DNA from: Paenibacillus sp. FSL H7-0331
GTDB lineage: Bacteria > Bacillota > Bacilli > Paenibacillales > NBRC-103111
Direction of reading: 5' to 3'
DNA length: 64,000 nucleotides
Assembly: GCF_001956045.1 (NCBI RefSeq)
Contig: NZ_MRTH01000034.1
Coordinates: 28,468 to 92,467, forward strand
Notes under the pieces: generated by a model
What the model saw: the letters and a program-made list of their open reading frames with translations, nothing else
The model's database searches: none
What the model was told of the DNA's origin: nothing
Shown: positions 3,710 to 21,947 of the stretch, piece by piece
Layout of the letters: the number at the start of each line of letters is the position of its first letter
How positions within the stretch are numbered: position 1 is the stretch's first letter
Translations under genes and position numbers: made by a program

Positions 3710-3724
3710 AGCGGGTGAGCTGCC

Positions 3725-4758: not shown

Positions 4759-6486
4759 ATGGTGAAAAACTTGAGTATTTTCAGCAAAATCATGATCATT
4801 GTATGCTTGCTGCTGATTCCACTGCTGCTGTTGTTCGCTTATTCGAATCAGGTGAGCACGAATGTCGTGAAATCGGAAATTGAGAAATCGAATGTGAACC
4901 GTCTTTCCTTTTTTTTGAATCAGATGGATACGAACGCAGATCAGCTGGCCAAGGTAGCTTTTACATTGGGTAGAGAACCGGAGGCCGTCAAGTTCCAGTC
5001 GATTCATTTGTCCTACGAGTTGTTCGATTCGATTCAGATTCGCCAAACGCTGCTGGAAAAAATCAATCTGCAAAGCGCCTCCTACAGCTGGACGAATAAG
5101 CTATCGATCTACTCACCGGCTTTGAAGCAGCTGGTTTCGACGAACGCCCTGGAAAATTATGATTTAAGCTATTTCCAGAAAAACATGTCACCCGACTGGG
5201 TTTATCGTCCCCATACGGGTGGCAGCGAGCAGCCAAACTATTTTTACCGATATTCGACCGATCCGTCGCTGCTGTTTGGCGACCTCAGTCAGGTGAATGT
5301 CATCATTGAGGTGGCTTTCGCAGCCCGGAATATCGAGCTGATGCTGGACCAATTCAAAGCTGGCAGCGTCGGGGAGCCGTTTTTCTTTCATGAGGGCTAT
5401 GATCCGATCATGAATTCCACGGCAAACCGGCAAACTGTCTCGGAACTGGCTGCTCTACTCAAAGGCGATAAGCTGCAGCGGTCGGGTAGCAGGACTGTGG
5501 AGATGAATGGAATCAAATATATGCTGAGTTATGCTAAATCCAGCTCCCTGGACTGGTATCTGGTTGACGTGGTTCCTCTGGAGAGCGTGCTGGCTCCGAT
5601 TACGACGAGCCGCAATTTGTTCTACACCACGATCTCTATGCTGCTGCTGACGAGTATTATGGCTTCCTACCTGTTATTTAAAAATGTTCAGGTTCCGATA
5701 ACCCGATTGATTGGAAGCGTAAACAATCTGAAGCGGGGAAACTTCTCGACACGGATAACGCTGAAGGCGAGCCGCGAATTCACGATTTTATTCAATCATT
5801 TCAACAGCATGGCCGAGCAAATTCAGGATTTGGTAGAAAAGGTGCTTCGGGAGAAAATCAGGGTGCGTGACGCGACGCTGAAGCAGCTGCAATCACAGAT
5901 TAATCCGCATTTTTTATATAACAGCCTCGCTTTTATCCAGAGTATGGCCCAGTTGGAAAACAAGCAGGCAATCATTGCCATGACACAGCATTTGAGTAAA
6001 TATTACCGTTATGCAACCCATATTGAGCATCAGGAGGTTACACTGGAGAATGAATTGATTTTAATTGTAAATTATTTGGAAATTCACAAGCTGCAAACCC
6101 GCAGATTGGAGTATGTGCTGGATGTTCCGGAGGAGATGAAGGCGAGTATTATTCCGAGGCTGCTTGTCCAGCCTATTGTAGAGAATGCCATCGTTCACGG
6201 AATTGAATGCAAGTCGGGTATCGGAACGATCCGAATTTCCGGTTATACTACCGAAACAGAGCACACTCTGATCATCGAAGATAGCGGAATCGGCAGCAGT
6301 CTGGAAGAAATTGCACAGATGAATGAAAGGTTTGGAAGAGGGCTGGATGAAGAGCTTGGACATGGCATGTGGAACGTGCATCAGCGGCTGAGGCATCAAT
6401 TCGGGGGAGGCTCCGGCCTGCACATTTCCGCTTCACTGCTGGGTGGCTGGAAGGTTGCGCTTACGATGAAAGTACGGATAAGCTGA
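4759..6486 (+). CDS. Sensor histidine kinase, YesM family
   Basis: Membrane sensor that autophosphorylates and passes phosphate to the adjacent response regulator. A first membrane segment (about residues 12-32) precedes an extracellular sensing region of roughly 260 residues, then a second membrane segment, a HAMP region, and a His-kinase domain of the YesM type. The phospho-acceptor is His384 in INPHFLYNS; the N-box is QPIVENAIVHG and the G-box region contains EDSGIGS. Start chosen at ATG 4759, behind GATGGGGTG; in-frame ATGs upstream would add a Cys-rich leader without a ribosome site. The sensor probably monitors the sugar imported by the preceding transporter. Confidence 0.9.
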   Translation: MVKNLSIFSKIMIIVCLLLIPLLLLFAYSNQVSTNVVKSEIEKSNVNRLSFFLNQMDTNADQLAKVAFTLGREPEAVKFQSIHLSYELFDSIQIRQTLLEKINLQSASYSWTNKLSIYSPALKQLVSTNALENYDLSYFQKNMSPDWVYRPHTGGSEQPNYFYRYSTDPSLLFGDLSQVNVIIEVAFAARNIELMLDQFKAGSVGEPFFFHEGYDPIMNSTANRQTVSELAALLKGDKLQRSGSRTVEMNGIKYMLSYAKSSSLDWYLVDVVPLESVLAPITTSRNLFYTTISMLLLTSIMASYLLFKNVQVPITRLIGSVNNLKRGNFSTRITLKASREFTILFNHFNSMAEQIQDLVEKVLREKIRVRDATLKQLQSQINPHFLYNSLAFIQSMAQLENKQAIIAMTQHLSKYYRYATHIEHQEVTLENELILIVNYLEIHKLQTRRLEYVLDVPEEMKASIIPRLLVQPIVENAIVHGIECKSGIGTIRISGYTTETEHTLIIEDSGIGSSLEEIAQMNERFGRGLDEELGHGMWNVHQRLRHQFGGGSGLHISASLLGGWKVALTMKVRIS

Positions 6487-6529
6487 TTCGTTTCCTTGTT
6501 AAGAACATACTCGCAGCGGAGGGTTGCTA

Positions 6530-8176
6530 ATGCAGTTGCTGATTGTTGACGATCATCCGGCCCAGGTCGATAGTATGGCTCAGACGATTCCTTGGTGTGA
6601 TTACGGAGTCAAAGCGGTCTATAAGGCTTATTCGGCTAAGGAAGCGCTGGAAACGATCCGAGCCCAATCCATTGATATCCTGATTACCGATATTCGCATG
6701 CCCGATATGAACGGTCTGGAGCTTATCCAAAGCGTAAGGTCTATATCTGAGAAAATCCGCTGTGTACTGATGTCCGGATATAGTGACTTTGAATATGCCA
6801 AGCAGGCTATTCAATTTAAGACGGCAGGTTATTTGATGAAGCCGGTTGATACCGGGGAATTGACAGCTCTCATCGAGCAAATCTGCAGCGAGCTGCGGGA
6901 GGAGTGGAATGTGAAGGAGGTATACCACAATGCGATGTATACCTTGCGTGAGAACATTCCTTTTCTGCGTTCCCAATTATTAATGGACCTGCTGCAGGGC
7001 AGGGAAATCGCGCGTCCCGTGTTATGCAAGAAGATGAGAGCGCTGGAGCTGCCTTTTGATTGCGAGGATTATGTGTGTATGATGGTCATCCGGATGGATG
7101 AGGAGAGCGCTGTGGAGGATGAAGTTAAGCTCTCCCTTTTGGAATATGCGATTACGAATATGGCTGAGGAGGTGTTTCGTGAAACCTTCCATCTCTGGCA
7201 CTGCAAGGACATCAATGGACATCTGGTTTTTCTGGTCAGCCTCAATCATGAGCAGCTGGAAAAACCACTTCATGAGCAGACGAATGAGCAGTACCGGCTG
7301 CAGCTGGCAGCGGATATCGGGGAGCTGCAGAAGAAAACGAGAACCTATCTGAAGCGTAAAATATCGGTCCTTTTAGTTAACCGCTGGGTGCGTCTGTCCG
7401 AGCAGATTGTCCCCCTATATCATTGCGCCATCACGGGAATCCGTAAGCATATCGGTAGTGAGCAGCAGTTTTTTGCTGTTGTTACTGATGATGCCGAGAC
7501 GATCCGTATAGGCTCGCTGCATTCCCTGTATGAGCCGCCAATGCTGCTGCATGTATTGGAAATAGGACGCTGGGATATGGCGGAGGAGCGGCTGGAGTTG
7601 GTTTTTAAGGAGCTGGATGCGAAGTGGAGGGAATCACCGGAGTATTTGAGCGAGGCCTTTTTCTTCATCGCCGGCACTTTTATGCACATCTCACATAAGA
7701 ACGGGCGGCAGCTGCAAAACATGATAGGTCATTACGGGAAGAAGCTGCAGCAGAACCGCACCTTTCGTCCTTTTCATTCGCTTGCGCAGTTACGCGAGTG
7801 GGTATTCGATGTGTTCGCGCTGCTTCAAAATGACCTGCAAAAGCAGCAGAAGGACCCAAAATTGACCGTTGTTGAACGGATTCAGGCCTATATTGAGCAG
7901 CATATGGATGGTGACGCCTCGCTGCAGGCGATTGCCGATCATGTCGCCCTGCATCCGGCGTATTTGTCCAAAATGTACAAGGTCGAGACCGGTATCGGGA
8001 TCAGCGATTACGTGATGAAGGTCAAGATGGAGAAGGCCGTCGAGCTGCTGCGTAACAAGCATGAGAAAATTTACAACATCGCAAGCCAATTGGGCTATCA
8101 GACACCACATTATTTTATCCGGGTGTTCAAGAAATATTATGGCGTTACACCTCAGGAGTTCAAGCTGAGCCAATAG
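6530..8176 (+). CDS. AraC-type response regulator, YesN family
   Basis: DNA-binding partner of the kinase just upstream. The receiver domain occupies residues 1-120, with phospho-acceptor Asp54 in ITDIRMPD and the conserved Lys in YLMKPVD. A long middle region links to two AraC helix-turn-helix motifs near the C-terminus (YLSKMYKVETG and ASQLGYQTPHYF). The start is ATG 6530 with GGAGGG at 6518-6523, rather than the TTG two codons earlier. The likely targets are the promoters at 945 and 8195, which share a near-identical block. Confidence 0.92.
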   Translation: MQLLIVDDHPAQVDSMAQTIPWCDYGVKAVYKAYSAKEALETIRAQSIDILITDIRMPDMNGLELIQSVRSISEKIRCVLMSGYSDFEYAKQAIQFKTAGYLMKPVDTGELTALIEQICSELREEWNVKEVYHNAMYTLRENIPFLRSQLLMDLLQGREIARPVLCKKMRALELPFDCEDYVCMMVIRMDEESAVEDEVKLSLLEYAITNMAEEVFRETFHLWHCKDINGHLVFLVSLNHEQLEKPLHEQTNEQYRLQLAADIGELQKKTRTYLKRKISVLLVNRWVRLSEQIVPLYHCAITGIRKHIGSEQQFFAVVTDDAETIRIGSLHSLYEPPMLLHVLEIGRWDMAEERLELVFKELDAKWRESPEYLSEAFFFIAGTFMHISHKNGRQLQNMIGHYGKKLQQNRTFRPFHSLAQLREWVFDVFALLQNDLQKQQKDPKLTVVERIQAYIEQHMDGDASLQAIADHVALHPAYLSKMYKVETGIGISDYVMKVKMEKAVELLRNKHEKIYNIASQLGYQTPHYFIRVFKKYYGVTPQEFKLSQ

Positions 8177-8194
8177 GAAGGCCGCACAAATAAA

Positions 8195-8248
8195 GTGGTA
8201 TCATCTTAAATCTTTTGTATAGGTATCTCATTGCAAACGCTTTAAACT
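8195..8248 (+). promoter_or_regulatory. Second copy of the 27-bp conserved block, with -10 box
   Basis: Bases 8195-8221 match 945-971 at 24 of 27 positions. The -10-like TAAACT at 8243 has the same 48-base offset as TACAAT in the first copy. The matching geometry suggests that one regulator controls both the transporter operon and the catabolic operon that starts here. Confidence 0.6.
8231..8245 (+). promoter_or_regulatory. Candidate cre site for CcpA
   Basis: TTGCAAACGCTTTAA has the central AARCGYTW of catabolite-responsive elements, with deviations in the outer positions. It lies between the conserved activator block and the -10, where CcpA binding would repress. Such control is expected for a sugar operon but the match is imperfect. 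Confidence 0.4.
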
Positions 8249-8286
8249 GAACTGGTAAGCTTAGCCAATTTTAAGGAGGAAGCCCT

Positions 8287-9252
8287 ATGAAATTAGTATC
8301 CACCTACCCGTTCGACTCTGGACAGGTTACCGAAATGAACAGTAAAGGAATCGAAGTCACACTGTTTAAAGGAGAACAGGAGCTAATCGATTCCGATGCC
8401 TATACGGACGCGGATATCATCATTGCCAATCACCGAACGCTGCAGCAGGACTTTCTGGAGAAATGCGACAGGGTGAAGTGGGTGCAGGTAGCCCATATCG
8501 GTATCGAGCGTCTGCCGATGGATTATTTAAAGGAGCGCGGTGTTATCGTAATCAATGCCCGTGGTTCGATGGGACTGCCGATTGCCGAGGATATTATGGC
8601 CAAGATGCTGATGCTGGCTAGAAACAGCGTCAAAGGCGTCAAAAACCAGCTCGAGCATACCTGGGGACGTATTGGCCCCTTTATGAATCTGTCCGGGAAA
8701 ACGGCCGGTATTATCGGAGCCGGGGATGTCGGAACGGAAACGGCGATTCGCGCCCGCGCCTTCGGTATGAAGGTAATCGGCGTCAATACGACCGGCAATC
8801 CACTACCTGAATTCGACCGGATGTACAAGCAAGAGCAGCTGAATGAGGTGATTGTGCAAAGCGACTTTATTATACTGACGCTCCCGTTGACTGACGCATC
8901 GCTTAGTCTGTTGGATGAGGAGCAGTTCAGGCTGATGAAGCCGAGTGCATTTATTATTAATATATCGCGTGGGGCGCTGATCAACGAAGAAATTTTATTC
9001 GATTATTTGAAAAACAACAAGATTGCCGGAGCCGGACTGGATGTGTTCGTTGAAGAATTCAAGCTCGGCAAGCTGCCGGCCGAAAGTCCGTTCTGGGAGC
9101 TGGACAACGTCATCATCACTCCGCACTGCGCAGGCGGCGGGGATCAATTCCACGACCGGTTCAGCCAGGGGTTCATGCATAATCTCGACTTGTTCCTTGC
9201 AGGCAGGACGGACGAGATGATCAATATCCGTCAATTCGGAAAAGGCTACTAA
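8287..9252 (+). CDS. D-isomer-specific 2-hydroxyacid dehydrogenase family protein
   Basis: NAD(P)-dependent reduction of a 2-keto acid or oxidation of a 2-hydroxyacid in the cytosol. The 321-residue protein has the Rossmann motif GIIGAGDVGTETA around residue 142, the conserved NISRGALINEE with the catalytic Arg near residue 229, and a C-terminal VIITPHCAGG that carries the His of the catalytic triad. AAGGAGG precedes ATG 8287. It heads an operon with a hydrolase-like gene and a sugar isomerase, so the substrate is probably a sugar-derived acid. Confidence 0.88.
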   Translation: MKLVSTYPFDSGQVTEMNSKGIEVTLFKGEQELIDSDAYTDADIIIANHRTLQQDFLEKCDRVKWVQVAHIGIERLPMDYLKERGVIVINARGSMGLPIAEDIMAKMLMLARNSVKGVKNQLEHTWGRIGPFMNLSGKTAGIIGAGDVGTETAIRARAFGMKVIGVNTTGNPLPEFDRMYKQEQLNEVIVQSDFIILTLPLTDASLSLLDEEQFRLMKPSAFIINISRGALINEEILFDYLKNNKIAGAGLDVFVEEFKLGKLPAESPFWELDNVIITPHCAGGGDQFHDRFSQGFMHNLDLFLAGRTDEMINIRQFGKGY

Positions 9253-9265
9253 GGAGGCTATGCCC

Positions 9266-11326
9266 ATGGCATCATGGTGGTCCGGCAATCAGCTGCGGCT
9301 TATCCAGAATAATCTTCGTGAAACCGATGCGAATCTTGATGTGGATCTGCTGATCAGCGACCTGAAGAAGCTATCAACCAATGTACTGATGATGAATGCA
9401 GGCGGTATTGTCGCCTTTTACCCGACCCGGCTGGAATATCATTACAGAGCCGCCAATCAGCAGAAGGATTTGCTCAAGGAAGCGATTGACAAGGCGCATG
9501 CGGCCGACATGAGGTTCATTGCCCGGTTTGATTTCAGCAAAGCGCACGAAAGCCTGTTCAATAAACGGCCGGAGTGGTTTTACCGTACCAAGGCAGGCAA
9601 GGAAGTCAACTACCACGGCATCGTCCATACGTGCATCAACGGATACTACCAGCGTGAATACTCACTTCAGTTGATCAACGAGGTTATTTCCCAATATGAA
9701 GTGGACGGTATCTTCTTCAATATGTTCGGCTATCAGACCCGCGATTACAGCGGTTATGATTACGGCATCTGCTTCTGCGACAGCTGCAGAACCCGCTTCC
9801 GCGAGTGGAGCGGCCTGGAACTTCCCGAAACGCAAAGCCTGGATGATCTCGTGTTCCGCAGGTACAAAGTGTTCCAGGATGTGACAACGAAGGAAATGTT
9901 GGAGCGGATTCATGAGTTGGTAACAAGCACCGGCAAAGAAATTGCAATATCGACCTATAACGAGCATAAGGTCGATATTGTTCGCAAGGAATCGAATACG
10001 GATAACAGGCGTCCGCACCCGTTATGGCTGTATTCAGCATCTGAAAATGTAAAATCGCTGGAGGATTCGTGGGAGGATAAGTTGATCAGCAACTGCTGTA
10101 TCAATGCGATTGATCTGGTACATAGATTCACAGCGGTTTCCAAGCATGAGATGAGCATCCGTTTAAGGGAATGCCTCGCCAGCGGCTCGGGTCTGGACTT
10201 TTGCATTATCGGGGTGTTCGAGGATTACCCGGACCGTGAGAATCTGCCGATCGTTGCCGAAATTTTCAAATACCATAAGGACCATGAGGCTTATTATGGC
10301 AGCTTTCTGTCCGCTGCGGATGTTGCGCTGATCAAGCCGGGCGGACCAGCACCCAAAAGCATGAAGGAATACTCAGGCCTGTTCAAGATGCTCAAGGAGC
10401 AGCATATCGTGTTTGATGTGATTCATCAAAATAATTTGCTGAATCAACGAGACAGTCTGCAGGGCTACAAGGCTGTGATCATCCCCGACATTGCCGAATT
10501 TTCCGAGGAGGGACTGCAGCTGCTGGAGACGCTTTATCAGGAAGGAGTGCAGCTCATCAGTACGGGATGTTCCTTTACCGAGGGGGCGGCCAATCTATCT
10601 TTTATGCAGCGTGTATTCGATCTAAAGCCCGGGCAGGTACAGGTGTACGAACGAGACGCCGCATATTTGAAAACTGCCGATAAAGGACTGTTTAAAAGCT
10701 TTCCGGAGCGGGACTGGATCTTTCTGAAGGGGACATTTCAGGAGCTGGAATTCGGGCAGCATACGCTGTCGCAGCTGCCTTTTGTCATCCCCTCAACCTT
10801 CGGCCCGCCGGAGCGTGCATCGGGACATCTGATTTCTGACAAAAGCTTTGGAGCCTCGATCCGTACGGATAATCCGGTCAGCGGAGGCAAGAACAGCTTG
10901 CGCAGAGCCGTTTACCTGCCATGGCAGGCCGGGGAGCTGTACTACAGGTATGGCTTTGCCGATCATAAGCACATTGTACTCGATATATTGGACGATATGC
11001 TGGACCAGCGCTGGAGGCTGACGACCAACGCTCCGTCCAATGTGGAGGTGTTCTTCAATAAGCTTGATGATCAAACCTATATCCTGCACGTGCTAAACCT
11101 GTCCGGCTTTAATGGGATGACGTATTCCGAGCCGCTTCCAGTCTATAGGCTGGAGATCACGCTACATGATATAGGGCATTGCAGCCAGCTGACAAGCTTA
11201 ACGGAGCAGGTTGAAGCCGCCTATGCCATGTCCAACGGAAAGATAGTGATTCAACTGCCGGAGCTGCAGGAGTTTGCCGCCATCGTTGTGAAGATTGAAG
11301 AAACGCCAAAGGAGATCGTGGTATGA
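9266..11326 (+). CDS. Putative glycoside hydrolase, GHL6-like with beta-galactosidase trimerisation-like domain
   Basis: A 686-residue cytosolic protein without signal peptide. The N-terminal 330 residues look like a TIM barrel of the hypothetical glycosyl hydrolase 6 group: FIARFDFSKAH, then VDGIFFNMFGYQ, then a Cys pair CFCDSC that may bind metal. The middle region resembles the beta-galactosidase trimerisation domain (YKAVIIPDIAEFSEEGLQ). Family function is not settled and no catalytic pair can be assigned with confidence. ATG 9266 is eight bases behind GGAGG (9253-9257), while ATG 9260 is too close. The gene overlaps the next by four bases (ATGA), so the products are coexpressed. Confidence 0.72.
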   Translation: MASWWSGNQLRLIQNNLRETDANLDVDLLISDLKKLSTNVLMMNAGGIVAFYPTRLEYHYRAANQQKDLLKEAIDKAHAADMRFIARFDFSKAHESLFNKRPEWFYRTKAGKEVNYHGIVHTCINGYYQREYSLQLINEVISQYEVDGIFFNMFGYQTRDYSGYDYGICFCDSCRTRFREWSGLELPETQSLDDLVFRRYKVFQDVTTKEMLERIHELVTSTGKEIAISTYNEHKVDIVRKESNTDNRRPHPLWLYSASENVKSLEDSWEDKLISNCCINAIDLVHRFTAVSKHEMSIRLRECLASGSGLDFCIIGVFEDYPDRENLPIVAEIFKYHKDHEAYYGSFLSAADVALIKPGGPAPKSMKEYSGLFKMLKEQHIVFDVIHQNNLLNQRDSLQGYKAVIIPDIAEFSEEGLQLLETLYQEGVQLISTGCSFTEGAANLSFMQRVFDLKPGQVQVYERDAAYLKTADKGLFKSFPERDWIFLKGTFQELEFGQHTLSQLPFVIPSTFGPPERASGHLISDKSFGASIRTDNPVSGGKNSLRRAVYLPWQAGELYYRYGFADHKHIVLDILDDMLDQRWRLTTNAPSNVEVFFNKLDDQTYILHVLNLSGFNGMTYSEPLPVYRLEITLHDIGHCSQLTSLTEQVEAAYAMSNGKIVIQLPELQEFAAIVVKIEETPKEIVV

Positions 11327-12393
11327 AAATCAATTTGGATCAATCCGATACGCTGCTTCAGCTCGATAAAACCCAATTGTTCGAGGCAACAGCCCATTAT
11401 TCCAGCTGGATAGCAGACGGGTATACCCAGGCCAAGGCACTGGAAGTCAAGGCGCTGTCCGGCAAGGTAGATGAAATCGTGATGTGCAGTGTCGGCGGAG
11501 GGCCGGTAGCGAGTCTCGTTCAGTTGAAGTCGCTGCTGTTCGATGAAATCAGGGTTCCGATTATTCTTTCGCAAGCGTATTCAATGCCTGCTTATGTCGA
11601 TGACGATTCGATTGTCTTCATCGTCAACTATTCCGGCGGTTCGGAGGAGGTTGTCAGCGCCTACCGACACGCGATCACAACCGGGGCGATGATTATTGTA
11701 CTGACTGCAGGCGGGAAGGCGAGGGAGCTTGCTGAGCAGAATGGACATTTGCTGTTCCAGCTGCCCGCGGGCAGACAGCCGCGAATGATCTCGACCAGCC
11801 ATGTTCTTGTTCCGATGCTCGTTATTCTGCATCGGCTGGGGCTGATCTCCGATCCCGATCAGGGGATTGCCGAAACGATCCGTTTGATCGAGCAATTGAC
11901 GCCGGCCTATGCGCCGCAGGCCGTACTGGCCGACAATGAAGCCAAACAGATTGCTACTGAAATGGATGGGCTGATTCCTGTGGTATATGGCACGCTGCCG
12001 TTTACGGATGCTTCTACGGTGCGCTTCAAGAACCAATTGGCTGAGGTCAGCAAGGTGATGGCTTTCAGCAACGCGATGTCGGGGCTTCATCACGATGAAG
12101 CTAATGGTTGGGATGCGGACAGCGCGATGCTGAGGCAGTTCCATTTTACCCTGATCCATGACCGGGAGGATACAGAGCCTATGGGAAGAAGGCTGCGGGC
12201 GACCCGGGAGGTACTGGCCTCCCGGGCGGGTGCTGTGCGCGTCATCACTTCCGTGGGTGAGAGCCGATTGGCGCGGATGTGCTCGCTGGTATATCTGATC
12301 GATCATGTCACGCTGTATCTCGCATTTATACGCGGGGTTCATCCGTCGCAAGGTGAGGCATTAAACGAGTTTAGAGCCAGGTTCAACAGCTAA
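11323..12393 (+). CDS. SIS-domain sugar isomerase, phosphoglucose/phosphomannose isomerase-like
   Basis: A 356-residue cytosolic protein with two sugar-isomerase (SIS) domains, probably acting on a phosphorylated or free sugar. Visible landmarks are MCSVGGGPVASL, FIVNYSGGSEEVVSAY, which is the phosphosugar-binding Ser/Thr loop, and LAFIRGVHPSQ near the C-terminus. The layout resembles bifunctional phosphoglucose/phosphomannose isomerases (COG0166, PF10432). Its start overlaps the stop of the hydrolase-like gene. A strong terminator follows about 120 bases downstream, closing the operon. The substrate is unknown. Confidence 0.78.
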   Translation: MKINLDQSDTLLQLDKTQLFEATAHYSSWIADGYTQAKALEVKALSGKVDEIVMCSVGGGPVASLVQLKSLLFDEIRVPIILSQAYSMPAYVDDDSIVFIVNYSGGSEEVVSAYRHAITTGAMIIVLTAGGKARELAEQNGHLLFQLPAGRQPRMISTSHVLVPMLVILHRLGLISDPDQGIAETIRLIEQLTPAYAPQAVLADNEAKQIATEMDGLIPVVYGTLPFTDASTVRFKNQLAEVSKVMAFSNAMSGLHHDEANGWDADSAMLRQFHFTLIHDREDTEPMGRRLRATREVLASRAGAVRVITSVGESRLARMCSLVYLIDHVTLYLAFIRGVHPSQGEALNEFRARFNS

Positions 12394-12515
12394 GCTGGTC
12401 GCGCCTGTACAGCATGGCAGTCCATCCGGTAAAGTCCCTGGATTTGTCGGCAGTTGGATTCATCAAAACAAATAATCCATCTACAGGAATCTTAAGGATA
12501 ACGCAAGTTCAATAT

Positions 12516-12640: not shown

Positions 12641-12667
12641 TGTCACAAAACAAACAGGTAATTCGTC
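12641..12667 (+). promoter_or_regulatory. ECF41-type promoter of the SdhC-like operon
   Basis: TGTCACA at 12641-12647 and CGTC at 12664-12667 are separated by exactly 16 bases. This equals the consensus reported for ECF41 sigma factors. It is followed by TTAT, as are the two related promoters at 19384 and 20462. The operon ends with an ECF41 sigma gene, so autoregulation is likely. The leader before the first gene is about 85 bases. Confidence 0.8.
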
Positions 12668-12758
12668 TTATGAGCAAACCATAAAACTTTTTTTCCAATG
12701 TTTTAATGAAATACTTATGCGAGCCGGAAGTAATTCATCTAGAAAGGAGAAATATAAA

Positions 12759-13481
12759 ATGAAAAGAAACTCGTATTACTGGCGTAAACTGCACTCGCTG
12801 CTTGGGGTGATTCCGCTCGGGGGCTTTATTATTGTGCACGTATTGACCAACTATCAAGCGTTTGAGCGCGGACCAGAAGGGTTCGCAAACGGCGTGCAAT
12901 TCATCAATAGCCTGCCGCTGTTGCCGGTGCTTGAGATTTTTGGGATATATCTTCCGATTTTGTTTCACGGCATGTATGGCTTGTACATGGCCTATCAGTC
13001 CAATATAAACTCGGGTCAATACACGTACAGCCGCAACTGGGCGTTCACTCTGCAACGTATTACTGGCGTTCTGACGTTTATCTTCGTTTTCTGGCATTTA
13101 TACAATACTCGTTTTCAAGTTTATATGGGCAATATTACGCATGATGAACTTGGTTCGACGATGCATCAAATTGCCACTAATCCTGCGTTTTTCGTTGTTT
13201 ATGTTATTGGTGTATTGTCGGCGGTATTCCATTTTAGCAATGGTATCTGGGCTTTCCTTATCAGCTGGGGTATTACGATTTCCCCGCGTGCGCAAAAAAT
13301 CTCCTCTTATATTTGTATGATTGTGTTTGTGCTTGTCTCCGCGTTGTTCATTCTTGCGCTCGTAGCTTTTACTGGTGATGAATTCAAAGATACGACTGGT
13401 TTTGCTTTTACATGGGGTTCATACTTTTGCTACGAAGTAGTATGCTCTGTCACGTTTCCGATTCCTAAATCGTCTTATTAA
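12759..13481 (+). CDS. SdhC-like diheme cytochrome b558 membrane subunit (orphan)
   Basis: A 240-residue membrane protein with five predicted helices, matching succinate dehydrogenase cytochrome b558 of Firmicutes. Four axial histidines are visible at 27, 70, 113 and 158, close to the positions known in B. subtilis SdhC, so it should bind two hemes. The start is ATG 12759 behind AAAGGAG; the longer frame from 12594 covers the promoter and is not coding. No sdhA or sdhB follows, which is unusual since sdhCAB is normally one operon. The tail from about residue 205 (DEFKDTTG onward) is unlike usual SdhC ends. The next gene encodes a flavoprotein that could serve as electron donor or acceptor. 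Confidence 0.85.
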   Translation: MKRNSYYWRKLHSLLGVIPLGGFIIVHVLTNYQAFERGPEGFANGVQFINSLPLLPVLEIFGIYLPILFHGMYGLYMAYQSNINSGQYTYSRNWAFTLQRITGVLTFIFVFWHLYNTRFQVYMGNITHDELGSTMHQIATNPAFFVVYVIGVLSAVFHFSNGIWAFLISWGITISPRAQKISSYICMIVFVLVSALFILALVAFTGDEFKDTTGFAFTWGSYFCYEVVCSVTFPIPKSSY

Positions 13482-13510
13482 CATCCAACCGGAAAAGGAA
13501 GGTGCAGAAG

Positions 13511-14827
13511 ATGTCGAACATCAGCGAAATGAAATGGGACGTCGTCATCATTGGAGCTGGAATTGCAGGATTGACAGCTTCCGTTTATTTGGCAAGGGCT
13601 GGACGTAAAGTGCTACTGCTAGAGAGAGCGGAAGAGCCCGGCGGCAGAGCCGCATCGAAGAATATAGCGGATGCTTGGATTAATCTTGGCCCGCATGCGC
13701 TCTATAAGAGTGCGTGCGGGATTTTACAGGAAGTTGGCGTTACACCGACGGGCGCGACGCCGAAGCCGAACAGTTTGCTAGTTTACAAAAAAACGAAAGG
13801 CGGAGACGTCGCCTTGCCTTTGTTTCAATTTCTGTTGGGCTCGTTCCTTAAATGGTCCGAGAAAACCCAGTTGATACGATTCTACGCCCAGATGCAGAAG
13901 GAGGACACTTCCATCCTCCAGAACATCAATCTGCAGAAATATTTGGAAACCCGCCTCCCGAGTCCGCGCGTTCGCAATGCCGTACTTGCGCTCGTGCGCA
14001 CATCCACGTATTGTAGTGCCCCGGATTTACTCAGCGCCGGAGCGGCGATCGCACAGCTGCAAAACGGGCAAGTGCTGTACGTAGACGGAGGCTGGCGTAC
14101 CCTTGTGGACGCATTAAAGGAACAAGCTCTGGCTGCGGGAGTGACGATCCAATGCGGTTGTTCGGCACGGACCATCGCGGGAAGCGAACCGGAAATGATA
14201 GTCTCCCTGAAAGATGGAACAATATTGAAGACTCACTATGTCTTGTCTACCTTAGGACCGAAAGAATCGTTGGCACTCCTTGATCCTGCCCTGCAGCCGG
14301 AGGAAGCAGCGATGTTCGAGCGGCTTGTTCCCATTCGGGCGGCTTGCCTGGATTTGGTTATGGCTGAAATGCCAAAGCCTAAAACAACCTTCGCTATGGG
14401 TGCCGATTATCCCTGGTATTTCTCTAATCATTCGGCCATCGCTAAATTTAGTGATAACCCGAAACAAATGGTCGTGCATGTTATGAAATATTTGCGACCG
14501 GGAGCTGATTCGAACGCCAAGCAAGACGAACAGGAACTGGAACAGTTTCTCGACCTGATCCAGCCTGGCTGGCGCTTACATGTCATTCAGCGTCGTTTTT
14601 TGCCGCACTTGCTCGTATCGCATGCTGTTGTTGCCGCGGCAAGTGGAGGATACTCCGGAAGACCGGGCCCTGTCGTCAAAGGACGGAAAGGACTGTTCGT
14701 TGCAGGAGACTGGGTGGGCGCAGAGGGCATGCTGCTGGGCGCATCGCTGGCTAGCGCCAAGAGTGCCGCGCAATGTATATTAAAAGACAAAGATCACAAC
14801 AAGGTAGGGGATTCACTTGGAGCTTGA
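13511..14827 (+). CDS. FAD-dependent oxidoreductase, phytoene desaturase/amine oxidase-like
   Basis: A 438-residue flavoprotein. The FAD-binding GAGIAGL starts at residue 15 and is followed by LLERAEEPGGRA, the typical second motif of the NAD(P)-binding_8/CrtI group. A C-terminal VKGRKGLFVAGDWVG matches the family's conserved FAD-contacting end. No carotenoid genes surround it, so a desaturase role is not implied. ATG 13511 lies eight bases behind AAGGAAGG; the GTG at 13502 is less likely. It sits between an orphan SdhC-like cytochrome and an ECF41 sigma gene, which it overlaps by 11 bases, so the three are coexpressed. Confidence 0.85.
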   Translation: MSNISEMKWDVVIIGAGIAGLTASVYLARAGRKVLLLERAEEPGGRAASKNIADAWINLGPHALYKSACGILQEVGVTPTGATPKPNSLLVYKKTKGGDVALPLFQFLLGSFLKWSEKTQLIRFYAQMQKEDTSILQNINLQKYLETRLPSPRVRNAVLALVRTSTYCSAPDLLSAGAAIAQLQNGQVLYVDGGWRTLVDALKEQALAAGVTIQCGCSARTIAGSEPEMIVSLKDGTILKTHYVLSTLGPKESLALLDPALQPEEAAMFERLVPIRAACLDLVMAEMPKPKTTFAMGADYPWYFSNHSAIAKFSDNPKQMVVHVMKYLRPGADSNAKQDEQELEQFLDLIQPGWRLHVIQRRFLPHLLVSHAVVAAASGGYSGRPGPVVKGRKGLFVAGDWVGAEGMLLGASLASAKSAAQCILKDKDHNKVGDSLGA

Positions 14828-15707
14828 TTCAGCGTACTTGTGCCATCGGCCGCTGCTTCTGTCCATCGCATATCGGATGCTGGGTTCCGTGTCCGACGCA
14901 GAAGATTTGGTACAGGATGTATTTTTCATTGCCCGGAAGTGGGAAGAGAACGAAGAAGGCGATCACGTTCGCAATCTGAAAGCATATTTGTGCAAAGTCG
15001 TCACGAACCGCTGCCTTGACTTCCTGAAATCCGCTCGCAAGCAAAGAGAGGTATACGTCGGTCCGTGGTTGCCGGAACCGCTCGTTCAGTATGATACGAA
15101 CGAATCGGGACAAGATCCTCTACAGACGATCATTCTGGAGGATACAATCTCGTATGCATTTCTTATTCTGCTTGATCAGCTCACGCCAGTCGAACGCGCG
15201 GTCTTCATTCTCCGAGAAGCTTTCGATTACGATTACCGCGACATAGCGGATATGATTGGCAAGACAGAGCTGGGTTGCCGCAAAATTTACAGCCGCCTGA
15301 AGCGGAAAATTCAAGCTGAGCCAGATACTTCGCAGACTGACGAAGCGAAGTCCGAGGAACTCGTTCATCGGTTTCTTCATGCCGCCTCGACGGGAAATAT
15401 GCAGGCGCTTGTCGCGACGCTGACCGAAGATATCACTGTTTACACCGATGGGGGAGGTAAAGTGCACGCTGCGACCCATCCAATCAGAACGATACCGCGC
15501 GTCGCAGCGTTCGTGCTAGGTCTTTCTTCAAAGATGGACGGACAAACCCGAATTCGTTCTGCGCGGATCAATGGTACTATCGGCCTGATCATAGGCAGTA
15601 TCGGCGATCGTTATAACGCGGTCATCAGCTTCCAGATCGAAGCCGACGGCATCCGCAACATGTACATCTTGCGGAACCCCGACAAGCTTCGGCACCTTAA
15701 CCTATGA
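14817..15707 (+). CDS. ECF41-family RNA polymerase sigma factor (SigJ-like) with C-terminal SnoaL-type domain
   Basis: Sigma-70 regions 2 and 4 occupy residues 8-165, followed by a fused C-terminal extension related to SnoaL-like proteins. The three hallmark motifs of ECF41 are present: WLPEP at 84-88 between the sigma domains, DGGGK at 211-215 and NPDKL at 287-291. In this group the extension, rather than a separate anti-sigma, modulates activity. The start is TTG 14817 within the end of the flavoprotein gene, behind AGGTAGGGG. It probably drives its own operon from the promoter at 12641. Confidence 0.92.
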   Translation: MELDSAYLCHRPLLLSIAYRMLGSVSDAEDLVQDVFFIARKWEENEEGDHVRNLKAYLCKVVTNRCLDFLKSARKQREVYVGPWLPEPLVQYDTNESGQDPLQTIILEDTISYAFLILLDQLTPVERAVFILREAFDYDYRDIADMIGKTELGCRKIYSRLKRKIQAEPDTSQTDEAKSEELVHRFLHAASTGNMQALVATLTEDITVYTDGGGKVHAATHPIRTIPRVAAFVLGLSSKMDGQTRIRSARINGTIGLIIGSIGDRYNAVISFQIEADGIRNMYILRNPDKLRHLNL

Positions 15708-15847: not shown

Positions 15848-16486
15848 ATGGCACAAATACTTTACATTACAGCTAATCCCAACTCATTCGAATACTCTAT
15901 AGGACATAGAATTGGACAGGGTTTTCTTAAGTCCTATCGTGAAACACATAAAGACGATGAAATTATCGAAATAGATTTATACAAAGAAGATTTTCAAACA
16001 GTTGATGAAGATGTACTCAATGCTTGGAGAAAAATGCGTAAGCATTATATGAATTTTGCTGAATTAAACCTTATCGAACAAGAAAAAATAAATGCTCTCA
16101 ACAAATTCGCAGATAGGGTGGTTCACGCTGATAAATATGTGTTTGTTTCCCCAATGTGGAACTGGGGAGTTCCCCCACGTTTAAAAGCGTTTATTGATAG
16201 TTTTGTAGTGGTTGGAAAAACCTTTTATTATACAGAGAAAGGTCCAGTTGGATACTTGAATAATAAAAAAGCCATTCATATTCAAATAAGTGGTGGAATT
16301 TACTCTCATGGTCCCGCAGCGATAATGGATCACAGTCATCCTTATTTGAAAATGGTTCTAAGTATCGTAGGTATAAGTGACTTAGAAGCGCTTTATGTGG
16401 AAGGCCACGAAATTAACCCAGAGAAAGCGGAAGAAATTATCAGTGAGGCGATGACAAAGGCAGTAAATCTTGCTATAGGATGGTAG
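15848..16486 (+). CDS. azoR: FMN-dependent NADH-azoreductase (AzoR family)
   Basis: Flavodoxin-fold enzyme of 212 residues that reduces quinones or azo compounds with NADH. The FMN site is seen in the N-terminal ITANPNSFEYSIG and in VSPMWNWGVPPRLKAFID near residue 100, with the flavodoxin-like HIQISGG later. AGGAGG precedes the ATG. Its base composition is more AT-rich than the upstream ECF41 operon. An NDH-2-like gene overlaps downstream only in an unsupported upstream extension. A paralogue lies at 39154. Confidence 0.9.
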   Translation: MAQILYITANPNSFEYSIGHRIGQGFLKSYRETHKDDEIIEIDLYKEDFQTVDEDVLNAWRKMRKHYMNFAELNLIEQEKINALNKFADRVVHADKYVFVSPMWNWGVPPRLKAFIDSFVVVGKTFYYTEKGPVGYLNNKKAIHIQISGGIYSHGPAAIMDHSHPYLKMVLSIVGISDLEALYVEGHEINPEKAEEIISEAMTKAVNLAIGW

Positions 16487-16536
16487 TGATTATAGCAGAG
16501 AGGTTTAATTTGGAGCGCAATACAAGGAGGATTCAA

Positions 16537-17757
16537 ATGAAACGAATTGTTATTATTGGTGGAGGTTTTGCTGGATTGTGGAGCGCTATAGGTGCAGCAC
16601 GAAAATTACATGAATTAAGAGTCGAAGGAAACGAAGTTGAAGTTGTTTTAATTAACCGTGATTCTTTTTTTGGTGTGCGTCCTCGCTTTTATGAAAAAGA
16701 TCCACACAATTATCGTATCCCTCTTATTCAAGTACTTGAACCGGTTGGGGTTCGCTTGATTGAAGGAGAAGTAGGACGAATAGATACCCAATCTCAAAAA
16801 ATAATTATTAATCAAACAGAAAAGCAGATTGAATTAAACTATGATCGGCTAGTCATTGCTGCCGGTAGTCAATTGTTACTTCCCGAGATCACTGGACTAA
16901 AGGAGTATGCATTTACTGTTGATACCATAAAAGATGCAATTCATCTTGACAAGCATATTAATGGTCTACCTGATTTGCCTGAAGTTGAGGGTAAATATAC
17001 TACGATTGTAGTTGGGGCTGGTTTTACCGGGCTTGAAATAGCAACTGAAATGACTTCTCGCTTAAAAGAGATTGCTAAGAAGGAAAATAAAGAATCAGAA
17101 GTAAAAGTTATCTTAATTGATAGAAATCCTACCATAGGCCAAGATTTGGGAGTACACCCAGGACCCATTATTGAACAGGCTTTAATTGATATGGATATTG
17201 AAATTCATACTAATGAAACAGTTATTTCTATTGATTCAAAAGGAGTAATTTTAGATTCTGGGGAACGTCTTGTTGCACTTACAACAATTTGGACAGGAGG
17301 AGTAAAGGCGAGTCCTTTGGCGGCAGATTTACCAGTGGAAAAAGATGTATTGGGGCGTTTACTCGTCGATTCGTGTTTGAAAGTAGAGGGTTTGCCGTCT
17401 GTTTTTGCGGCTGGAGATACCGCTCGAGCAAAAACAGATGATAATCATGTAGCACTAATGACTTGTCAGCATGCAATACCTCAGGGGAAATTTGCCGGAC
17501 ATAACGTTGTGAGCGATTTACTTGGATTGGAAGGAATTCCATACAAACAAGAAATTTATAATACCTGCCTTGATTTAGGTCCTTGGGGAGCACTTGTTAC
17601 TAATGGTTGGGATCGAGTTCCCCAGTCTCAAGGAGAAGACGGCAAAAAAATCAAACAGTACATTAACCAAAAACTAATTTATCCACCCTTATCAGGAAAT
17701 CGTGAAGAATTATTCAAAGAAGCTGCACCTACCGAGTTAAAAATTAGATTATCATAG
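16537..17757 (+). CDS. NAD(P)/FAD-dependent oxidoreductase, NDH-2-like
   Basis: A 406-residue two-dinucleotide-binding flavoprotein. The FAD motif GGGFAGLW begins at residue 8, a second Rossmann motif VVGAGFTGLEIA lies near residue 157, and VFAAGDTARAK is the conserved late FAD contact. The fold matches type II NADH dehydrogenases and related disulfide oxidoreductases, without a CxxC redox pair. ATG 16537 follows AAGGAGG at 16524-16530. It is 50 bases after the azoreductase and probably cotranscribed, suggesting a quinone redox pair. Electron acceptor is inferred. Confidence 0.87.
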   Translation: MKRIVIIGGGFAGLWSAIGAARKLHELRVEGNEVEVVLINRDSFFGVRPRFYEKDPHNYRIPLIQVLEPVGVRLIEGEVGRIDTQSQKIIINQTEKQIELNYDRLVIAAGSQLLLPEITGLKEYAFTVDTIKDAIHLDKHINGLPDLPEVEGKYTTIVVGAGFTGLEIATEMTSRLKEIAKKENKESEVKVILIDRNPTIGQDLGVHPGPIIEQALIDMDIEIHTNETVISIDSKGVILDSGERLVALTTIWTGGVKASPLAADLPVEKDVLGRLLVDSCLKVEGLPSVFAAGDTARAKTDDNHVALMTCQHAIPQGKFAGHNVVSDLLGLEGIPYKQEIYNTCLDLGPWGALVTNGWDRVPQSQGEDGKKIKQYINQKLIYPPLSGNREELFKEAAPTELKIRLS

Positions 17758-18459: not shown

Positions 18460-19065
18460 ATGTTTCAGCATAGTAATCAAAAATATGAAGGAGTAAACTT
18501 TGGCACACAAGATTTAAGGTACGGCGAGCTACTAAGTTGTACATTTAATCGTTGCTTCTTTTCTAATGGATCACTAGAGGAGATTACATCCAGTAACTGC
18601 CGTTTCATCGAGTGTGATTTTCGTGGAGCATCGTTAAATGGCTCTATTCATAAAGAATCCGCGTTTGAGAATTGCAATTTTAACGGAGCAAATCTGTTTG
18701 TTTCTAAATTTGAAATATGTAAAATGACAGGTTCGGATTTTTCTGGCTCTAATTTGGATGGGATCACTATTTTTCAAGGCGATTGGTCATATACCAATTT
18801 GAGACATACCCGATTAGTTAAACAGGACTTGCGTGGGGTTAAATTTCATGAAGCAGACTTGTCAGCAGCAAATTTAGAAAAAGCCGATTTAAGAGATTGT
18901 GATCTGACTATGGCGATACTGGCAAAAGCGAAGTTACAAGGTACTGATGTAAGAGGGGCAAAAATGGAAGGCGTGGATTTTAAAACATTCACCATTACAG
19001 GTATGAGAATGGATAGAGAGCAATCTGTATTGTTTTCGCTTTCTCATGGTGCCAAGGTAGGTTAA
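18460..19065 (+). CDS. Pentapeptide-repeat protein (Qnr/MfpA-like)
   Basis: A 201-residue cytosolic protein built almost wholly of A(D/N)LXX-type repeats, for example FRGASLNG, FNGANLF, FSGSNLDG, ADLSAANLEKADLRD. Such right-handed beta-helices include DNA-mimic proteins that protect gyrase from quinolones, but many have no known role. The size suits the Qnr/MfpA class. ATG 18460 follows AGGGGG. It stands alone between decayed sequence and a terminator. Resistance function is only a possibility. Confidence 0.85.
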   Translation: MFQHSNQKYEGVNFGTQDLRYGELLSCTFNRCFFSNGSLEEITSSNCRFIECDFRGASLNGSIHKESAFENCNFNGANLFVSKFEICKMTGSDFSGSNLDGITIFQGDWSYTNLRHTRLVKQDLRGVKFHEADLSAANLEKADLRDCDLTMAILAKAKLQGTDVRGAKMEGVDFKTFTITGMRMDREQSVLFSLSHGAKVG

Positions 19066-19383: not shown

Positions 19384-19410
19384 TGTCACACAATGACCTC
19401 GCCAATTGTC
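19384..19410 (+). promoter_or_regulatory. ECF41-type promoter of the second ECF41 gene
   Basis: TGTCACA (19384-19390), 16 bases, then TGTC (19407-19410) and TTAT. It differs from the ECF41 consensus only in the first base of CGTC. It lies 30 bases before the start codon of an ECF41 gene, so autoregulation is expected. The sequence around it is closely similar to the promoter at 20462. Confidence 0.75.
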
Positions 19411-19439
19411 TTATCAGTGTCACAATAAGGGGGTATACT

Positions 19440-20345
19440 ATGCAAAGTCATACAAACAATCCACCAATTGCTAACATCGAAGATTTGTATAAAACCTACA
19501 AGCCTCATTTATTTTCTATTGCTTACCGTATGCTTGGTTCTAGATCAGATGCAGAGGATATGGTTCAAGATTTGTTTATAAGCGTTCATGGATATCTAAA
19601 TGATAATATTATTAATATCAAATCGTACTTAAGCAAAATGATGATCAATCGATGTCTGAACGAATTAAAATCTGTGCGAAAAAAAAGAATAAGCTACGTA
19701 GGTAATTGGCTTCCAGAACCAACCGTGCAATTCATCGAACATAGTCCCTTTGAGAGCGTCGAGCGTCATGATACGATTTCTTATGCCTTTCTTATTCTTA
19801 TGGAAAAACTTACGCCTTTGGAAAGAGCTGTGTTTATTTTAAGGGAAGTCTTTGCATATGAGCATAGTGAAATTGGCGAAATGTTTAACAAAACAGAAGT
19901 CAATTGCCGTAAAATATTCAGTCGTGTCAAGAAAAAAGTAGAGTTGTCCTCCGAAAAAAATGAATGGTTATTAACCCATCCCATTGAAGAAAAGGAACTG
20001 GTGAATCGCTTCATCTCTGCACTGGCGAATGGCAACATTCAATCACTTGTGGACTTGTTAACAGAGGATGTAATATTGATTGCCGACGGTGGAGGAAAGG
20101 TGTCCGCCGCTACCAATCCAATATATAGCAAAGAACGTGTGCTTGACTTATTGAATGTACTTTCGTTAAATCGATTTCCAGAATCACAAGCCCAGCTAGT
20201 CGAGGTCAATGATCAAAAAGGGATATTGTTAACGAAAGATGGCCTACCAACGGGGGTTATTTGTTTTGAATGGGACGCTGAATCAATGACGATTCAGCGG
20301 ATTTACATTATAGTGAATCCAGATAAATTACAACACTTAAACTGA
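19440..20345 (+). CDS. Second ECF41-family sigma factor (SigJ-like)
   Basis: A 301-residue paralogue of the sigma factor at 14817, with regions 2 and 4 in the N-terminal 175 residues and the SnoaL-type extension after them. WLPEP is at 90-94, DGGGK near residue 216 and NPDKL at the C-terminus, all ECF41 hallmarks. ATG 19440 is preceded by AAGGGGG; the frame from 19383 includes the promoter and is not the start. It is followed by a carboxymuconolactone decarboxylase-family gene carrying the same promoter type. This is the genomic pairing described for ECF41. Confidence 0.92.
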   Translation: MQSHTNNPPIANIEDLYKTYKPHLFSIAYRMLGSRSDAEDMVQDLFISVHGYLNDNIINIKSYLSKMMINRCLNELKSVRKKRISYVGNWLPEPTVQFIEHSPFESVERHDTISYAFLILMEKLTPLERAVFILREVFAYEHSEIGEMFNKTEVNCRKIFSRVKKKVELSSEKNEWLLTHPIEEKELVNRFISALANGNIQSLVDLLTEDVILIADGGGKVSAATNPIYSKERVLDLLNVLSLNRFPESQAQLVEVNDQKGILLTKDGLPTGVICFEWDAESMTIQRIYIIVNPDKLQHLN

Positions 20346-20461: not shown

Positions 20462-20488
20462 TGTCACACATTGAACTCGTCAGTTGTC
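20462..20488 (+). promoter_or_regulatory. ECF41-type promoter of the CMD-family gene
   Basis: TGTCACA (20462-20468), 16 bases, TGTC (20485-20488), then TTAT. The arrangement is the same as before the second ECF41 gene, and much of the spacer is identical. It marks the adjacent gene as a direct sigma target. Confidence 0.75.
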
Positions 20489-20524
20489 TTATTAGTGTCA
20501 AAAAAATACACAGGAGGTACTGTT

Positions 20525-21004
20525 ATGGCACAACGTGTAAATTATATGCAGCAATCACCAGAACTTTTTAAAAAATTAATGGAATTCAGCAACGCCGAGA
20601 AAGACAGCGTAATTGAAGAGAAGATCCTCGATCTTGTTCACATCAGGGCCTCGCAAATCAATGGGTGCGGTTTCTGCCTGGATATGCACGTCAAGCAGGC
20701 CAAAATCCACGGCGAGAGCGAACTTCGCCTTTACCACATCTCAATTTGGCGGGAATCGACGCTGTTTATTCCACGCGAGCGGGCTGCACTGGCATGGACC
20801 GAGATTCTGACCAAACTACCTGAACAAGGTGTGCCCGACGACGTTTATGATCGCGTTCGCGGGCAATTGTCTGAAAAAGAAATCTCGGATCTGACCTTCT
20901 CGATTATGGCGATCAATGCTTGGAACCGTATAAACGTCGGCTTCAAAACTGTACCGGGCTCGGCTGATGCAGCTTTTGGATTGTCTAAAGCAGGTCTGAG
21001 CTGA
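20525..21004 (+). CDS. Carboxymuconolactone decarboxylase-family (AhpD-like) protein
   Basis: A 159-residue all-helical protein with the peroxidase-type CxxC motif: Cys48 and Cys51 in NGCGFCLDMH, and His55. AhpD-like members act as thiol reductants or peroxidases, and this family is the most frequent partner of ECF41 sigma factors. ATG 20525 is behind CAGGAGGT. The frame upstream to 20471 covers the promoter and is not coding. Its codon use is more GC-rich than the sigma gene before it. The exact substrate is unknown. Confidence 0.9.
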   Translation: MAQRVNYMQQSPELFKKLMEFSNAEKDSVIEEKILDLVHIRASQINGCGFCLDMHVKQAKIHGESELRLYHISIWRESTLFIPRERAALAWTEILTKLPEQGVPDDVYDRVRGQLSEKEISDLTFSIMAINAWNRINVGFKTVPGSADAAFGLSKAGLS

Positions 21005-21191: not shown

Positions 21192-21947
21192 ATGAAAATA
21201 GTAGTTATTGGTGGTAGTGGGCTCATTGGAACAAAACTCGCTAACAACCTTCGTAATCTTGGCCACGAGGTAGTGGCAGCATCACCATCCTTAGGCGTCA
21301 ATACCATTACTACTGAGGGGCTGACTGAAGCGCTTAGTGGTGCTCAGGTTGTCGTCGACGTGGCGAACTCGCCTTCGTTTGATGACAAAGCAGTATTGGA
21401 GTTCTTCGAGACATCGGGTCGAAATCTTCTTGCCGCTGAAGCGGCTGCTGGAGTGAAACATCACGTTGCGCTGTCGGTTGTTGGCACTGAACGCCTTCTC
21501 CAGAGTGGTTATTTCCGTGCGAAGATGGCCCAAGAAAACCTGATCAGAGCTTCCAAGATTCCCTATACCATCGTTCGTGCAACGCAGTTCTTCGAGTTCG
21601 TCAACGGCATTGCCTATACGGCCACCGAAGGACAAACCGTTCGATTGCCGTCTGTTTTTGTGCAGCCTATCGTTTCGGATGATGTTGCTACGGCGATGGT
21701 CGACTTCACACTCGAGGCACCAGTGAATGGTATTGTCGAGTTAGCTGGTCCCGAAAGGCTACATCTCGACGAACTCGTCCGACAATACTTGAGCGCAATA
21801 CAGGATACACGTCAGGTGGTTGCAGATGTCAACGCGCGCTACTTCGGCGCAGAGCTAGACGATCAATCTCTCGTCCCGAGCGACAATGCGCGCATCACTA
21901 CGACGCGGTTCAGTGATTGGCTCAGCCGTTCCACGACTTTAGTATAA
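21192..21947 (+). CDS. NmrA-like NAD(P)-binding protein (atypical SDR)
   Basis: A 251-residue protein with an N-terminal GGSGLIGTKLANNL dinucleotide-binding motif and later YTIVRATQFFEFV, typical of the NmrA/SDR_a5 group that binds NAD(P) and acts as reductase or redox sensor. It lacks a clear YxxxK pair. GGGAGGATCAAC precedes the ATG. Upstream, a TGTCACA occurs at 21117 without a good -10 at the ECF41 spacing, so membership in the sigma regulon is uncertain. Epimerase or reductase genes often accompany ECF41. Confidence 0.85.
   Translation: MKIVVIGGSGLIGTKLANNLRNLGHEVVAASPSLGVNTITTEGLTEALSGAQVVVDVANSPSFDDKAVLEFFETSGRNLLAAEAAAGVKHHVALSVVGTERLLQSGYFRAKMAQENLIRASKIPYTIVRATQFFEFVNGIAYTATEGQTVRLPSVFVQPIVSDDVATAMVDFTLEAPVNGIVELAGPERLHLDELVRQYLSAIQDTRQVVADVNARYFGAELDDQSLVPSDNARITTTRFSDWLSRSTTLV

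Follow-up and report, generated by a model that had tools for sequence, protein, structure and literature searches.

An orphan SdhC-type dihaem cytochrome gene behind an ECF41-type promoter in Paenibacillus

Why does Paenibacillus sp. FSL H7-0331 carry a gene for an SdhC-type dihaem cytochrome that has no sdhA or sdhB behind it and is followed by genes for a flavoprotein and an ECF41 sigma factor? The question is raised by a 64,000-nucleotide stretch of its genome (contig NZ_MRTH01000034.1, positions 28,468 to 92,467, forward strand), which is referred to here as the window. Sequence comparison indicates that this sdhC very probably belongs to a clade of orphan SdhC paralogues regulated by ECF41. 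The two features at the centre of the question are the following.

12759..13481, + strand: orphan SdhC of the dihaem b558 family, 240 residues (family scores, tree, histidines, predicted model)
12641..12671, + strand: putative ECF41-type promoter of orphan sdhC, TGTCACA-N16-CGTC and then TTAT (match to the published consensus)

The open reading frame (ORF) of sdhC starts with an ATG at 12759 and ends with a stop codon at 13479–13481. Its product scores 123.9 bits against the NCBIfam model TIGR02046 (sdhC_b558_fam; cutoff 96) and 42.4 against Pfam Sdh_cyt (PF01127; cutoff 25.8). His-27, His-70, His-113 and His-158, the presumed haem ligands by comparison with Bacillus subtilis SdhC, are present in all 13 orphans compared, including that of the window, and in all 14 sdhCAB-type SdhCs; the orphans L012, L018, L020, L032 and L149 and the sdhCAB-type genes L002, L030 and L031 are outside this count (loci, genomes and contigs are numbered L, G and C). 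A structure predicted from a 26-row alignment has a mean predicted local distance difference test score (pLDDT) of 81.1 and contains five long helices plus a short one. The tail, residues 214–240, has a pLDDT below 50, and the helix drawn there is not trustworthy. The best Foldseek matches of the model are SdhC of Chloroflexus aurantiacus (9lay_C, E 5.6e-4) and then FrdC of Wolinella succinogenes (E 6.3e-3 to 1.7e-2), at 15–17% identity; when solved structures were searched by sequence, 6lum_C alone matched. The Wolinella and Chloroflexus proteins were solved with their own A and B subunits.

Neither SdhA nor SdhB was found in the 64-kb window by tblastn with the SdhA and SdhB of locus L021 as queries, and no sdhA and sdhB follow sdhC as they would in an sdhCAB operon. 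Together with the four histidines, this agrees with the preliminary description of the locus, which had named a dihaem-type SdhC without its partners. By family score, histidines and the five long helices of the model, the protein resembles the b558 SdhC (TIGR02046) of the Bacillus and Paenibacillus succinate:menaquinone reductase. It differs in having no sdhA and sdhB behind it, in its ECF41-type promoter and in its C terminus, which lies at about 210 residues in most orphans or, in the window, is run-on.

The orphan arrangement is not confined to the window. A contig scan of genomes with the window SdhC gave 33 loci, whose flanks were examined up to 8 kb. SdhA and SdhB follow sdhC in 17 of the 33 and do not in the other 16; neither subunit was found within the flanks of these 16 orphan loci, nor at a further one, L149 in genome G418. 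The orphan total is therefore 17 copies in 16 Paenibacillus genomes, or 18 with the window. In phylogenetic trees, from which L149 is absent, the 16 orphans and the window gene form one clade (support 82/93, and 84/93 once the SdhCs of the hosts' own operons are added), nested in a group of sdhCAB-type SdhCs (100/98) with P. gorillae and P. radicis nearest. The operon-borne SdhCs of these two species are 86–88% identical to the window protein. L017 and L018 of G014 are the orphan region present twice, with identical SdhC on two contigs, which is either a duplication or an assembly artefact.

Fifteen orphan-bearing genomes (G003–G017) contain a second SdhC that is only 54–66% identical to the window protein, where the orphans of the same genomes are 73–83% identical. 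SdhA and SdhB adjoin this second copy in all 15 (L034–L048); in L048, from G010, the SdhC reading is split over two frames. In G010 the orphan SdhC also contains an in-frame stop, and sequencing error or real damage could account for both. The preliminary description had held that an intact second sdhCAB operon would point to a cytochrome that had only recently lost its partners. Intact or near-intact operons are indeed present in 15 of 15 orphan genomes, but the orphans are an old clade and not the product of recent loss. A fresh remnant of sdhCAB was accordingly rejected as an explanation, the orphans being an old separate clade and the host SdhCs so far removed from them. The most economical reading is lateral spread, as the orphan is closer to the SdhC of the P. 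radicis group than to those of its hosts, and orphan sdhC has probably moved in this way among Paenibacillus. The organism of the window likely also carries sdhCAB, because P. periandrae (G005), whose genome is closely related over part of the window (see below), has the full operon (L047).

The ECF41 promoter is given as TGTCACA-n16-CGTC, with a TGTT variant at the validated target ydfG, by Wecke et al. 2012 (PMC3426412). This consensus has one match in the window, at 12641–12667, 118 nucleotides upstream of the sdhC ATG. The wider pattern TGTCACA-N16-[CT]GT[CT] was found at 10 of 18 orphans (the window, L004, L005, L006, L009, L014, L016, L017, L018 and L020), with its start 49–124 nucleotides before the ATG, and at none of 32 sdhCAB-type genes (Fisher 4.3e-6). 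For L020, which has no ATG, the distance was taken to residue 4. Collapsing duplicates (L027 and L035 are one gene, and L017 and L018 are near copies) gives 9 of 17 against 0 of 31 (p 1.4e-5); the 32 sdhCAB-type genes are 31 distinct ones, and the p-values are guides only, as the sequences are related. A first-order Markov model predicts 0.003 copies of such a site per set of 18 sequences. At L013 and L019 an NDH-like gene, an ECF41 gene and sdhC follow one another in this order on the same strand, and an ECF41-type promoter, perfect in L013 and with one mismatch in L019, stands before the NDH-like gene. An ECF41-type promoter or an ECF41 gene thus directly precedes 12 of the 18 orphan copies. 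Thirteen of the 16 orphan loci, and none of the 17 sdhCAB loci, have homologues of short-chain dehydrogenase/reductase (SDR), carboxymuconolactone decarboxylase (CMD) or ECF41 genes in the flanks examined. The placing of the orphan under ECF41 control in the preliminary description is thus supported by an ECF41-type promoter that recurs before other orphans.

Several observations weigh against this assignment or against an independent function of the gene. Shuffled windows contain 0.15 matches to the consensus on average, and 13 of 100 contain at least one, so the window site alone is no proof. The pattern was widened from CGTC to [CT]GT[CT] after the orphans had been viewed; CGTC alone finds the window only, and CGT[CT] finds 6 of 18 orphans. 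Six of the 18 copies (L003, L008, L011, L012, L032 and L149) have no ECF41 link. The fork that unites the orphans has moderate support (83% of 200 bootstrap trees, with surrounding forks at 82–84), and the pairing of the window gene with L004 is weak (84/54 and 89/48). L012, L149 and L032, none of them linked to ECF41, have an in-frame stop or have lost the N terminus, and the promoter-linked L020 has no ATG, GTG or TTG at its start. Finally, the orphans retain most of the cytoplasmic residues conserved among sdhCAB-type SdhCs, as would be required of an SdhAB anchor.

The damaged copies indicate that the orphan gene is dispensable in places, and they bear on the reading of the orphan as a passenger, a mobile or decaying gene in ECF41 accessory clusters with little function of its own. 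Three or four of the 18 copies are damaged, and the distribution is scattered. Within the genome family of G005, matches at E <= 1e-95 occur in 8 of 104 genomes, and G017, with a shortened copy, makes 9. The family of G002 has matches at E <= 1e-104 in 62 of its 394 genomes; most of these genes are of sdhCAB type, and the orphan is present in at least 7 of 394. This is a lower bound because 20 of the 63 matches in that family are outside the SdhA check; of the others, 30 were classed through loci L119–L148 (27 with SdhA, 3 orphans), 8 from the sequence around the match (SdhA and SdhB present in 7, the eighth being the orphan of G418), and 5 were already known (4 orphans, in G007, G014 and G015, and the sdhCAB of G019). 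Over both families the orphan occurs in at least 16 of 498 genomes. Against a passenger, however, the median ratio of nonsynonymous to synonymous substitution among 13 intact orphans is 0.082 (61 of 78 pairs usable), indicating purifying selection, and it is 0.093 among sdhCAB-type genes (62 of 91 pairs usable). Ten of the 18 copies have also retained an ECF41-type promoter of their own although their surroundings are rearranged, and damage is commoner in the unlinked copies: 3 of 6 against 0 of 12 linked ones (p 0.025). With L020 included among the damaged copies, the linked count becomes 1 of 12 (p 0.083). We consider the passenger reading improbable.

Positions 1–12419 of the window are colinear with contig C185 of P. 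periandrae G005 and 95–96% identical to it. This colinearity stops abruptly at 12419, 340 nucleotides before the sdhC ATG and just ahead of the promoter. For the part from 13500 to about 18300, which contains crtI, ECF41a and the azoreductase-like and NDH-2-like genes, no G005 match was found among the 40 of 234 candidates that were scored. G005 has its own orphan, together with an ECF41b gene, a CMD gene and an SDR gene, on another contig, at 81–87% DNA identity against the background of 95%. As this module falls below the background and the window match ends before sdhC, the orphan/ECF41 module is, by these comparisons, accessory and recombining.

The conserved cytoplasmic residues suggest another possibility, that the orphan is a stress-induced alternative anchor that takes the place of the housekeeping SdhC in complex with host SdhAB and so alters the quinone site, the direction or the inhibitor sensitivity of the enzyme. 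The orphans keep the fold and the four histidines, and Arg-9, His-12, Ser-13, Arg-92, Asn-93, Arg-100, Trp-170, Pro-176 and Gln-179 on the cytoplasmic side are invariant among 13 orphans and 13 sdhCAB-type SdhCs. Compared with the subunits of L021, host SdhA is 85–93% and host SdhB 80–90% identical; a single SdhB match in this range was found in every one of 20 genomes, and nine other matches are partial, at 27–34%. The stage-specific complex II isoforms of Ascaris, on which work is cited in PMC4519900, are a precedent for an alternative complex II in one organism, although those isoforms are mitochondrial and developmental and not ECF-controlled. The divergence of the orphan cytoplasmic face depends on the sdhCAB set used for comparison. 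The face is not relaxed relative to the closest set (ratio of ratios 0.97), but it looks relaxed relative to two wider sets (1.98, random-site p 0.0004, and 2.32, p 0.0062). The numbers of broken invariant sites do not differ in any of the three sets (p 0.28, 0.84 and 0.14). In hosts whose own SdhC has very different cytoplasmic loops, the orphan face shows no shift to host residues: the counts are 10 of 194, and 88 of 2328 with orphans from other hosts, a weak comparison. This lack of host-specific adaptation speaks against an anchor. So does the spread of the orphan to hosts in which SdhB is only 80–84% like its L021 counterpart, provided that docking depends on matched surfaces. An alternative anchor is somewhat unlikely, and a stand-alone cytochrome is favoured over both it and the passenger reading.

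The genes and further promoters that surround sdhC in the window are as follows.

13448..13478, + strand: putative ECF41-type promoter of crtI–ECF41a, TGTCACG-N16-CGTC-TTAT, within the last codons of the sdhC ORF
13511..14827, + strand: FAD oxidoreductase of amine-oxidase fold (CrtI-like, here crtI), the 'O' of the ECF41 COE context (Pfam and NCBIfam scores, crtI loci)
14817..15707, + strand: ECF41 sigma factor a (family scores, WLPEP)
15848..16486, + strand: azoreductase-like FMN quinone/azo reductase (Flavodoxin_2; just below the NCBIfam cutoff)
16480..17757, + strand: NDH-2-like pyridine nucleotide-disulphide oxidoreductase (family scores)
19384..19414, + strand: putative ECF41-type promoter of ECF41b, TGTCACA-N16-TGTC-TTAT
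19440..20345, + strand: ECF41 sigma factor b (the listed ORF begins at 19383; start likely 19440, behind the promoter)
20462..20492, + strand: putative ECF41-type promoter of the CMD gene, TGTCACA-N16-TGTC-TTAT
20525..21004, + strand: CMD/AhpD-like protein (family scores; ORF listed from 20471)
21192..21947, + strand: NmrA-like SDR, the 'E' of COE (Pfam)

The sigma factor a scores 337.9 bits against TIGR02957 (cutoff 323.25) and contains WLPEP at residue 84, a linker motif given as an ECF41 trait in PMC3426412. Immediately upstream of it, the FAD oxidoreductase gene is a COE gene whose ORF overlaps that of the sigma factor by 11 nucleotides, so the tight linkage of flavoprotein and ECF41 gene noted previously is borne out. 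The flavoprotein itself passes Pfam Amino_oxidase (73.7, cutoff 19.8) and falls below the NCBIfam models crtI_fam TIGR02734 (48.9 against 238.1) and HpnE (86.9 against 283.05). By these scores the protein is not a member of the CrtI phytoene desaturase family, and 'CrtI' is a loose name for it.

It had been proposed that this flavoprotein takes the place of SdhA and SdhB, docking on the orphan SdhC by the unusual tail and supplying it with electrons. The two genes are adjacent, with 29 nucleotides between the sdhC stop and the flavoprotein ATG, and both lie behind ECF41-type promoters; at L013 and L019 the grouping recurs with an NDH-2-like protein, of another flavoprotein family, before ECF41 and the orphan. 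A crtI homologue was, however, found at 0 of 16 orphan loci in flanks of up to 8 kb. In G005 a homologue lies 13.2 kb from the orphan on the same contig. At E <= 1e-40, 18 of 20 genomes contain crtI homologues (33–41% identity), and an ECF41 gene adjoins crtI in 20 of 23 loci; L059 and L062 are without it, and L064 is cut short. The pair is also present in G018, G019 and G020, whose only SdhC found is that of sdhCAB. The crtI–ECF41 pair is an independent unit, and the CrtI-like gene beside the window orphan looks like a chance neighbour. A flavoprotein that replaces SdhA and SdhB was rejected on these grounds. In a Pfam scan of ten proteins from orphan loci, no common electron partner was found; eight of the ten had matches, including adh_short SDRs in L005, L016, L032 and L009.

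The tail offers no better support for docking. The window SdhC has no counterpart in its relatives beyond about residue 220, and most orphans end at about 210 residues. The promoter of crtI at 13448 lies inside the sdhC ORF, and the last 11 codons of sdhC (residues 230–240) are this promoter read as codons. Promoter codons at the end and the lack of a counterpart point to a lost stop codon; on sequence grounds, translation runs on into the crtI promoter and so produces the tail. With its low pLDDT from residue 214 onwards, it was discarded as a docking part. The tail would presumably face outward, if the topology is that of B. subtilis SdhC. Taken together, a two-part enzyme of flavoprotein and orphan SdhC is highly improbable.

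Sites of the ECF41 type were also collected over whole genomes. The pattern TGTCAC-N17-YGTCTTAT gives 24 sites in 20 genomes and none in the reversed control. The first gene after these sites is ECF41 in 4 cases, CMD in 6 (one at 39% identity), azoreductase-like in 4 (34–42%), orphan sdhC in 3, SDR in 1, crtI in 1 and another gene in 5. These five (L088, L093, L095, L096 and L100) are unrelated or uncharacterised, and L088 and L095 are still within such clusters. A second pattern, TGTCACA-N16-CGTTTNA, gives 15 sites (control 2), which precede orphan sdhC in 5 cases, ECF41 in 2, CMD in 1, SDR in 1, an NDH-like gene followed by ECF41 in 1 and unrelated genes in 5. With both patterns, a gene of these classes comes first behind 29 of 39 sites, orphan sdhC accounting for 8; L088 is excluded, as an uncharacterised ORF comes first. 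Because both patterns were modelled on sites already seen at orphans and at ECF41 genes, the 8 orphan matches are partly by construction; what is independent is the result for the other gene classes. Two of the azoreductase-like genes behind such promoters, L089 (G001) and L090 (G002), are in genomes without an orphan. In the window, a second azoreductase-like gene, of the same family as that at 15848–16486, lies at 39154–39789, without an ECF41-type site by the pattern used.

The window shares with the ECF41 COE system its ECF41 factor, oxidoreductase, CMD and epimerase-like SDR, and a promoter of the form TGTCACA-n16-CGTC; PMC3426412 concludes that no ECF41 targets other than the COE genes can be detected, with one target per factor. 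In contrast, the same promoter type here also precedes orphan sdhC and azoreductase-like genes, and several sites occur in one genome, six in the case of G010.

At the gene level, these SdhC paralogues have left the SdhAB partnership, come under ECF41 and moved, apparently by lateral transfer, among Paenibacillus. If the orphan acts alone, some signal, probably toxic quinones or peroxides, would switch on ECF41; this theme is suggested by the azoreductase-like, CMD/AhpD-like and SDR genes that the same promoter type precedes. Azoreductases of Bacillus relatives reduce quinones. The five-helix orphan would then enter the membrane, hold two haems b by its four histidines and exchange electrons with menaquinone unaided, linking the quinone pool to small redox partners with no succinate chemistry. 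The CrtI-like flavoprotein would be a separate target of the same sigma type, adjacent by chance in this genome. This mechanism, a stand-alone quinone-pool cytochrome, is possible but short of probable. The explanation as a whole, of an ECF41-controlled and laterally spread SdhC paralogue with such a role, is the best we can offer, though tentatively, at slightly less than an even chance. That it represents a novel class, a dihaem b cytochrome freed from SdhA and SdhB that spreads laterally within a wider ECF41 regulon for quinone or peroxide stress, is rather doubtful.

Searches of the literature on ECF41 and Paenibacillus, orphan SdhC and sigma factors, ECF41 regulons and the gene combination found no description of this arrangement, many subscription papers being outside the search. 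ECF41 factors are widespread and their physiological purpose is obscure. If the proposal is true, a membrane quinone-reactive cytochrome alongside azoreductase-like, CMD and SDR genes would make quinone or peroxide stress a testable theme for them, their regulon would be wider than the single COE target known, and a complex II anchor would have become a separate, regulated and laterally moving protein.

Two other regions of the window may be mentioned. Between the ECF41 clusters, positions 18460–19065 encode what appears by eye to be a pentapeptide-like repeat protein, in a region about 82% identical to contig C206 of G005. From 33401 to 53300, G005 matches the window only as scattered blocks on several contigs.

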